A stretch of DNA of 37,919 bases from Bacillota bacterium (GTDB lineage: Bacteria > Bacillota > Sulfobacillia > JAJZYS01 > JAJYTV01). Below, piece by piece: positions 35,809 through 37,919 of this stretch (position 1 is the stretch's first letter; every line of letters begins with the position of its first letter). Both the position numbers and the translations under genes were made by a program. The stretch is from the NCBI GenBank assembly GCA_021793645.1, contig JAJYSJ010000024.1, positions 1 to 37,919 on the forward strand. The letters run 5' to 3'. The notes under the pieces were generated by a model. The model made no database searches and was not told where the DNA came from. It worked only from the letters and a program-made list of their open reading frames with translations.

Positions 35809-35905
35809 GGAGACTTTTCGGGCGCAAACGTTCGCATGCTAGCGAAATCGGGCGTTTCTGCGGGCTGAACGCACCTCGTGCGAGTTTGCAAAAATGGCCA
35901 AGTGT

Positions 35906-36148
35906 CTAGTTGCGGATCGCGCCGAGGTGGCGGTAGGCTGCAAGGAAGACGTTCTGCAGGATGTCGTCGGCCATCGCGGCACTCCCCGTATAGAGGTAGG
36001 CCTGCTGATAGACGCTCCGGGCGTAGGTCGTCATCAGGGACTCGAGCGTCGTCGTTGCCACCTCCGCACCCACTACGAACCCGCAGCGCACCGAATTGTT
36101 CACGCGCCGGCGGAGCAGCCCGCGGACCCATCTTGATCCCATGGGCAC
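35906..36148 (-). pseudogene. Truncated ECF sigma factor gene
   Basis: Only sigma region 2 remains. Residues run TTYARSVYQQAYLYTGSAAM then ADDILQNVFLAAYRHLG, the classic core-binding and -10-recognition helices (pattern A.DDI.Q..F..AYR.L), and a stop follows at once. Region 4, which reads the -35, is missing, and no match to it is seen downstream. A natural start is probably a GTG near 36061. GTG 36148 gives the longest frame, 80 residues. It could be a degraded gene, or a short protein that binds RNA polymerase core without promoter recognition. Confidence 0.65.
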
Positions 36149-36260: not shown

Positions 36261-37214
36261 TCAGCGCTCCGGATGCGCCCGCAGCCACTCCAGCACCTCC
36301 AACCCGTGGCGCTCCGGGGCGTCCACTGGGTAGAACGCGTGCTCCACGATACCCCTGCGCACGATCAGCGTGAGCCGGCGGAAAAGCCGCATCCCCTCCG
36401 CCTCGAAGGTCGGCAACCCCATCGCCTGCGCGAGCGCGAGCCGCTCGTCGGAGAGCATGGCGAAGGGCAGGCGCAGCCGCTCGACGACCTCGCGCTGGTA
36501 CTGGGTGGACTGGCTCGAGAGCCCGAACACGCGCTGCACACCCGCATCCAGCAGTTCTGCATGATGGTCACGGAAGTTGCACGCCTCGGCGGTGCAGCCG
36601 CGCGCGCCCGGGATGGTCTCCCATCCCTTCGGCAGGTCGACGAGGGGGCTGCCGGTCAAGGGGTAGAGGTAGATCACCGTTCGGCCATCCCAAGGCACCC
36701 CGAGTCGCACCGTCTCTCCGTCTGTGCTCCGCAGCTCGACAGGCGGCATGCGCCGGCCCGCGAGAGGCCACCGCCAGGACGTGGCGTCATCCTCCGCCGC
36801 GCGGTTGGGTCCCGGAGGCCAGGGGAGATCCAGGGACACCGCGTCCGACCTGCTCCCGGGGACCATGCCGATCGCCGCATCCAGGCAGGCGACCAGGGTG
36901 GCTCTGCGTGCGGCGAACTGCTCGATCCGCTCCGAGAGATCGTCGATCGCCCGGCGGTACGCCGCGAGGGACTCCGGGCAGACGTCCGCCCGCGCGTTCC
37001 CAGCGAGCAGGCATTCGAGGAACGGCCTCGTGTCGGAGACCGCGAAGCCGAGGTCCATGAGCCCTTTGATCTCCCGCACCAGCGCGACGTCGAGCGGATC
37101 GTATTCGCGGTAGTCGTTGCCGGCTCTCCGTGGCGTGACGAGGCCTAGCTTCTCGTAATAGCGCAGCGCCCGGACAGTGACGCCCGCCCTGCGAGCGGCT
37201 TCGCTGACTCTCAT
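36261..37214 (-). CDS. MerR regulator fused to a peroxiredoxin
   Basis: The protein has 317 residues in one uninterrupted frame. Residues 1-~70 are a MerR winged helix (VSEAARRAGVTVRALRYYEK and LVTPRRAGNDYREY), followed by a coiled-coil dimerisation helix (~85-115). Cys68, Cys79 and Cys110 lie in this regulatory part. Residues ~155-317 are a redoxin of the AhpC/BCP type. The active site GARGCTAEACNFRDHH has the peroxidatic Cys207 and a Cys212 placed like the resolving Cys of BCP enzymes, preceded by VIYLYPLTGSP. A plausible reading is a DNA-binding peroxide sensor that carries its own reactive thiol. ATG 37214 has GGGGGA upstream. It lies 145 bp after an MFS gene on the same strand, a possible target. 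Confidence 0.9.
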   Translation of the reverse strand: MRVSEAARRAGVTVRALRYYEKLGLVTPRRAGNDYREYDPLDVALVREIKGLMDLGFAVSDTRPFLECLLAGNARADVCPESLAAYRRAIDDLSERIEQFAARRATLVACLDAAIGMVPGSRSDAVSLDLPWPPGPNRAAEDDATSWRWPLAGRRMPPVELRSTDGETVRLGVPWDGRTVIYLYPLTGSPLVDLPKGWETIPGARGCTAEACNFRDHHAELLDAGVQRVFGLSSQSTQYQREVVERLRLPFAMLSDERLALAQAMGLPTFEAEGMRLFRRLTLIVRRGIVEHAFYPVDAPERHGLEVLEWLRAHPER

Positions 37215-37359
37215 GCCGCGTCCCCCTGCTCCATGGACTCTGAGCCTGCGCGCCGCGTCCGACCTGAAGGCAACGGCGCGCGCCCGTGCGCGATCTCCAC
37301 AGAGAAGAATTCCGCGTCACCCGCGAAACCCTTCCCAGCCGCCGCGCGGCCCGCACCCG

Positions 37360-37919
37360 TCAGGACGGAACGGCGCCGTCGCCCGCCGCAGCGCGGCGTT
37401 CCACCGCGCGCAGCGGCGAGCGCAGGAAGTAGATCGCCACGAGGATGTTCAGAAGGGCGCAGAGGAGGAAGACCCGGCGCGCACCGAACGCCGCTGCCGC
37501 GAAACCCGAGGCGAAGATCGCGAACGGCATGCCGAGCTTGAAGATCGATCCGGTGAGACCGCTGATCCGCCCGATCATCTCGGGCGGCGTGGTCTCCTGG
37601 CGGAACGTCCAGACCCCGATCGCCAGCACGATCGTGGAAGCGCCCTCAAGCAGCAGGGATACCGCCGTCAGGACCGTGCCGTGCGCCATCGCCATGAGGA
37701 AGTAGGAGCATGCTGCGGCACCGATCGCGATCACGAAGAGGCGCCCGAGTCCCAGGGCGGCGCGAAGTTTGGGCGCCGCCGCGGAACCCAAGGCGGCGCC
37801 CAGGCTCGCGATCGTCAGGAGCAGTCCGAGCTCCGCATTGCCGAGATGCAGCCGATCCTTGGCGAAGTAGAGGAACATCGCCGCGAACATGCCCTCGGTC
37901 GAGTTCGTGAAGATGATCG
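37360..37919 (-). CDS. MFS transporter, C-terminal part (runs off the window)
   Basis: About 186 residues are visible, open to the window edge, so the N-terminal half is missing from view. It shows about five helices, with GLLLTIASLGAALGSAAAPK and the loop FRQETTPPEMIGRISGLTGS, typical of 12-helix MFS efflux proteins with an enterobactin-exporter/macrolide-efflux-like C-half. Substrate is unknown. It is upstream of the MerR-peroxiredoxin gene and may be regulated by it. Confidence 0.85.
   Translation of the reverse strand, partial: IIFTNSTEGMFAAMFLYFAKDRLHLGNAELGLLLTIASLGAALGSAAAPKLRAALGLGRLFVIAIGAAACSYFLMAMAHGTVLTAVSLLLEGASTIVLAIGVWTFRQETTPPEMIGRISGLTGSIFKLGMPFAIFASGFAAAAFGARRVFLLCALLNILVAIYFLRSPLRAVERRAAAGDGAVPS

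Follow-up and report, generated by a model that had tools for sequence, protein, structure and literature searches.

Regulators of the MerR family such as CueR, ZntR, MerR, SoxR and NmlR share an N-terminal helix-turn-helix, a dimerisation helix and a cysteine located before that helix. Peroxiredoxin folds joined to another domain occur in the hybrid Prx5 of H. influenzae (PDB 1nm3) and in a peroxiredoxin-nitroreductase (PDB 4eo3), and in both the partner is an enzyme domain. Relays from a peroxiredoxin to a regulator are known between separate proteins; in the yeast Orp1-Yap1 system, a thiol peroxidase oxidises a regulator and the two are distinct polypeptides.

The gene described here lies in the window (the whole 37,919-nucleotide stretch of Bacillota DNA that was analysed) and encodes a MerR regulator joined to a peroxiredoxin fold. 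The protein shares the helix-turn-helix, the dimerisation helix and the cysteine before it with the five regulators listed above, but we saw neither a C-terminal metal-binding loop nor an FeS motif, and its effector part is a peroxiredoxin fold. Whereas the partners in 1nm3 and 4eo3 are enzymes, the peroxiredoxin fold is here attached to a DNA-binding domain. The logic that we propose is that of Orp1-Yap1, but within one polypeptide and with a relay that is hypothetical. We found no paper in the open-access literature that describes a MerR-redoxin fusion; its sequences are public in databases and stand there unremarked. The fusion is real, conserved and apparently undescribed, and represents a variant of the MerR one-component regulators.

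Architecture and spread of the fusion

36261..37214, minus strand: merR-prx fusion gene, 317 amino acids, ATG start at 37214 (open reading frame, Pfam, full-length relatives)
36867..37214, minus strand: MerR DNA-binding and dimerisation part, residues 1–116 (Pfam, AF2, PDB relatives by sequence)
36768..36866, minus strand: linker, residues 117–149, disordered at 121–147 (pLDDT <50 in the AF2 model)
36264..36767, minus strand: peroxiredoxin-fold part, residues 150–317 (Pfam Redoxin, AF2 match to BCP/PrxQ)

The reading frame contains no internal stop codon and no frameshift, and both modules exceed their Pfam cut-offs, which bears out the preliminary description of a MerR regulator and a redoxin in one uninterrupted polypeptide. 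Residues 1–61 match MerR_1 (PF13411; 60.4 bits, cut-off 21.6), and PF00376 also matches this part (46.8 bits, above cut-off). Residues 152–301 match Redoxin (PF08534; 56.7 bits, cut-off 26.6) and residues 205–292 match AhpC-TSA (PF00578; 46.8 bits, cut-off 26). The AF2 model has a mean pLDDT of 85 for the whole protein. Its MerR part is confident up to about residue 110 (pLDDT mostly 88–98 by block) and is composed of helices 3–10, 14–22, 40–54, 59–70 and 80–116, the last of which is the long dimerisation helix. With this helix and its N-terminal helix-turn-helix, the protein is a member of the MerR family. The fold of the MerR part was assigned via sequence matches, its PDB relatives by sequence being MerR and CueR, and the fold comparison concerned the peroxiredoxin part. 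Comparison with the named subfamilies CueR, ZntR, SoxR, MerR and NmlR placed the fusion in none of them, and the NCBIfam MerR equivalog scores all remained far from their cut-offs (CueR, the best, 50.3 against 147.4; SoxR 37.0 against 116.9; MerR 36.1 against 150.85).

The search for other proteins with the MerR-Redoxin order, as proposed in the preliminary description, identified relatives in two phyla. Four full-length relatives belong to the family of the window genome (G044, 85% identity; G048, whose fusion lies on the same contig as L039, 76%; G049, 73%; G046, 72%), and another genome of the same class, G115, encodes a full-length fusion with 55% identity. In Actinomycetota we identified 14 fusion loci with ~48–55% identity, among them those of Mycolicibacterium, Brevibacterium and Corynebacterium (L040–L044; 48–51%), and the Brevibacterium class, sampled with 395 genomes, added seven further fusion genomes. 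Complete Streptomyces plasmids also carry the fusion, under the NCBI names “redoxin family protein” or “MerR family transcriptional regulator”. One actinobacterial genome contains a broken merR-prx copy (L125:1131-1892). Between the window gene and that of G044, dN/dS is ~0.09 for the MerR part, ~0.18 for the linker and ~0.22 for the peroxiredoxin part; based on these low values, purifying selection acts on all three as a single frame.

The peroxiredoxin part and the conserved cysteines

37011..37013, minus strand: Cys68 codon, invariant in 18/18 fusions and in 8/8 thioredoxin-linked sister MerRs
36978..36980, minus strand: Cys79 codon, just before helix 80–116, invariant in 18/18 fusions and 8/8 sister MerRs
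36600..36644, minus strand: 15-residue insert before the putative peroxidatic cysteine, residues 191–205, retained across the subfamily, missing from aligned solved relatives
36594..36596, minus strand: Cys207 codon, putative peroxidatic cysteine, invariant in 18/18 fusions
36579..36581, minus strand: Cys212 codon, candidate resolving cysteine, present in 16/18 fusions (lysine in G049, glutamate in G115)

Residues 150–317 are confidently modelled apart from the region around 190–205, and structure comparison identified BCP/PrxQ structures as the closest match (Z 18–20). The domain carries a cysteine in the peroxidatic position and is thus a member of the peroxiredoxin superfamily. In addition to the fold, it shares with BCP/PrxQ enzymes the GCTxEAC active-site stretch and the conserved proline and arginine, which correspond to P185 and R280 and are, like C207, invariant in the aligned fusions. 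Unlike these enzymes, it features the 15-residue insert: the stretch preceding C207 reads P185-L-T-G-S-P, followed by the insert and then G206-C207, and the alignment shows that the PxxxTxxC motif of PrxQ/BCP is absent. Its scores also fall below the NCBIfam PrxQ/BCP equivalog cut-offs (45.5 against 140 for NF006960; 37.1 against 260 for NF053650). The insert is retained in solo and fused members of the subfamily alike. Solo members keep the same cysteine as C207 and, in a further difference from BCP/PrxQ, carry an N-terminal LPxGLPxPxDDG segment. We found no solved structure for the subfamily with this active-site insert. The domain should be named a divergent peroxiredoxin-fold protein rather than a PrxQ. 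Because the insert precedes C207 and PxxxTxxC is missing, peroxidase activity is uncertain, as is the peroxide sensing that its sequence may suggest.

The cysteine counts refer to an alignment of 18 fusions and a sister set of eight MerRs. C68, C79, C110, C207 and C212 (the last two forming the C-x4-C) occupy the positions first assigned to them. Of the “BCP-like C-x4-C active site” proposed at that stage, the likeness to BCP holds, but the insert, the missing motif and the variable C212 qualify it; because C212 is not conserved, two-cysteine chemistry would not be general. A similar division applies to the suggestion that the cysteines of the MerR part could form relay disulfides. C68 and C79 are as invariant as C207 and remain candidates, but C110 is present in just 5 of the 18 fusions, and its incomplete conservation, like that of C212, speaks against an essential role in a relay.

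A putative operator and the MFS operon

37360..37917, minus strand: MFS exporter gene, 3' part, co-directional with and upstream of the fusion gene; the 5' part is on contig C55
C55:872-899, minus strand: putative operator, 40 bases before the MFS start

The MFS gene extends over two contigs, window positions 37793–37919 overlapping C55:1-126 by ~126 bases; the last few window bases differ from C55 within this overlap. The published signature of MerR promoters is a palindrome within a spacer of 19 or 20 bp (PMC1526738). The operator predicted here is a MerR-type promoter element, TTGACC-N20-TAnnnT, whose spacer of 19–20 bp contains a dyad. In 20/20 cases it stands ahead of the fusion gene or of the operon, and 19 of the 20 aligned elements agree in the position of the dyad centre. 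A palindrome in a 19–20-bp promoter spacer and an adjacent transporter gene are both features of MerR-family regulators, and the element is a likely operator in all 20 fusions. In the four family relatives (G044, G046, G048 and G049) it is located just upstream of the MFS gene, which in turn precedes merR-prx, whereas in G115 and in Actinomycetota (the operon of the latter being merR-prx) it directly precedes merR-prx. Since the element lies upstream of the MFS gene on C55, the operon in the window genome reads operator-MFS-merR-prx.

Genome scans allowing up to two or three mismatches identified exactly one site in each of 11 fusion genomes and none in four family members that lack the fusion, and a reversed control pattern gave no match. 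In the genome of the window itself the exact pattern gave no match, and the C55 site was found once mismatches were allowed. The excess of dyad pairs in single elements over shuffled sequences is clear in the stronger elements only, and therefore the case for the operator rests on position and conservation.

An orthologue of the MFS gene is present in 5/5 family genomes with the fusion and in 0/5 without it. The earlier proposal of this gene as a target is strengthened by the putative operator, which lies upstream of it in all five fusion genomes of the family. The binding site proposed at 37215–37359 is not supported; no such element was found in that region, and the operator candidate is instead the one upstream of the MFS gene.

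Downstream of merR-prx, at 35906–36148 on the minus strand, the window contains an ECF sigma factor remnant (an 80-amino-acid open reading frame matching the start of Sigma70_r2). Because this remnant abuts glycine-betaine ABC transporter genes, a rearrangement near 35900 is suggested. In G044 merR-prx is followed by an intact 186-amino-acid sigma orthologue and then by a 300-amino-acid open reading frame lacking a Pfam match, perhaps an anti-sigma factor; a similar pair is located further downstream of merR-prx in G049.

Possible redox signalling within one polypeptide and its alternatives

The MerR tree groups the fusions in a single clade (97/87), whose sister group consists of small actinobacterial MerRs (L126–L133). 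As in the fusion, these proteins feature the C68/C79 pair and an operator before the gene, but they have no peroxiredoxin domain, and a separate thioredoxin gene follows in 8/8 loci. Their slightly different operator, a palindromic element (TTGCCTTGACGnnnnCGTCAAGG), is found directly before the gene near the start codon. They make up an apparently uncharacterised family of merR-trx operons. A thioredoxin gene also follows one of the fusions, L108. Since MerRs with the C68/C79 pair are coupled to thioredoxin genes, thiol-redox sensing is supported, and of all the evidence this link speaks most strongly for thiol chemistry within the MerR part; the weaker step of the mechanism is the peroxiredoxin part.

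The same join, three cysteines and DNA site across two phyla point to an uncharacterised redox-sensing switch acting on its own operon. We give about an even chance to the fusion being a single-polypeptide, thiol-redox-responsive MerR activator of its own operon. More specifically, and only tentatively, we suggest that the peroxiredoxin domain is the peroxide sensor and hands its oxidation on in cis to a cysteine pair within the MerR dimer, and so switches the promoter; Actinomycetota may additionally produce a free peroxiredoxin from an internal start. The dimer would bind the operator via its MerR parts. C207 would react with an oxidant, which may be a hydroperoxide or else a thiol-reactive substrate of the MFS pump, and oxidation would cross the flexible linker to C68/C79, either directly or through thiol exchange. 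This would alter the MerR dimer so that it untwists the long spacer and activates the exporter together with further synthesis of the regulator and its peroxiredoxin, and thioredoxin or low-molecular-weight thiols would reset the system. Several points count against an activator of this type, among them the insert, the missing PxxxTxxC, the variable C212 and the sister MerRs that have C68/C79 but no peroxiredoxin. Contact between C207 and C68/C79 is in doubt given a disordered linker and a monomeric AF2 model, and the cysteine at the C79 position serves to bind metals in other MerR regulators.

Because the sister MerRs retain C68/C79 without a peroxiredoxin, and must sense alone, the MerR part of the fusion may do so as well, through a disulfide, an electrophile or a metal. 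The peroxiredoxin would then be a passenger enzyme, its fusion ensuring joint production of regulator and detoxifier with no signalling in cis. The two parts can indeed separate, as the solo peroxiredoxin L045 nests inside the fusions in the peroxiredoxin tree. A strict single-clade origin of the fusions is rejected when L045 is left out (p 0.0013) and compatible with the data when it is included (p 0.38), consistent with a single fusion event followed by one or more separations. Other solo relatives occur in Rubrobacteraceae, Verrucomicrobiota, Halobacteriales and elsewhere; an Agrobacterium locus (H7) considered as an unfused MerR-peroxiredoxin pair was discarded, its helix-turn-helix gene not reading as a MerR protein. 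A separate peroxiredoxin may also be made in Actinomycetota, since an ATG with a Shine-Dalgarno-like sequence is located at the free-peroxiredoxin start in 9 of 14 fusions by script (L041, L043, L044, L106, L107, L109, L135 and L136 are among the fusions with an internal start) and in a tenth, L105, by eye. This start may be the vestige of a separate gene or may yield a second product. However, no internal start was found in the window family, where only the fused form exists, and the fusion MerR parts make up one clade whose join persists across two phyla. We consider this arrangement less likely than the redox-responsive activator.

The peroxiredoxin fold may alternatively have lost its chemistry and become a ligand-binding or oligomerisation domain, in a regulator that would respond, in the manner of a multidrug MerR, to a toxic substrate of the MFS pump. 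The missing PxxxTxxC, the conserved insert and the variable C212 would agree with such a loss, as would the MFS protein itself, which is weakly related to macrolide and tetracycline efflux pumps. Yet C207, R280 and P185 are invariant, the solo members preserve the same cysteine, and beyond the window family an exporter immediately next to the fusion gene is missing in most cases, which makes this improbable. A missing stop codon joining two genes through misassembly or misannotation, named at the outset as what would undo the finding, is ruled out for practical purposes: although the source genome is fragmented and the contig of the window breaks off within the MFS gene, independent assemblies and complete plasmids repeat both the order of the domains and the place of the linker, and selection preserves the linker along with both domains.

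For the redox-responsive activator that we propose, the covalent attachment of MerR to a peroxiredoxin and the single dedicated operator would offer a compact system in which a peroxiredoxin-driven transcription switch could be tested in cis. The finding further marks out a peroxiredoxin subfamily whose active site carries an unusual insert, and it suggests that MerR proteins built around the C68/C79 pair and thioredoxin operons form a wider group, apparently not yet characterised.
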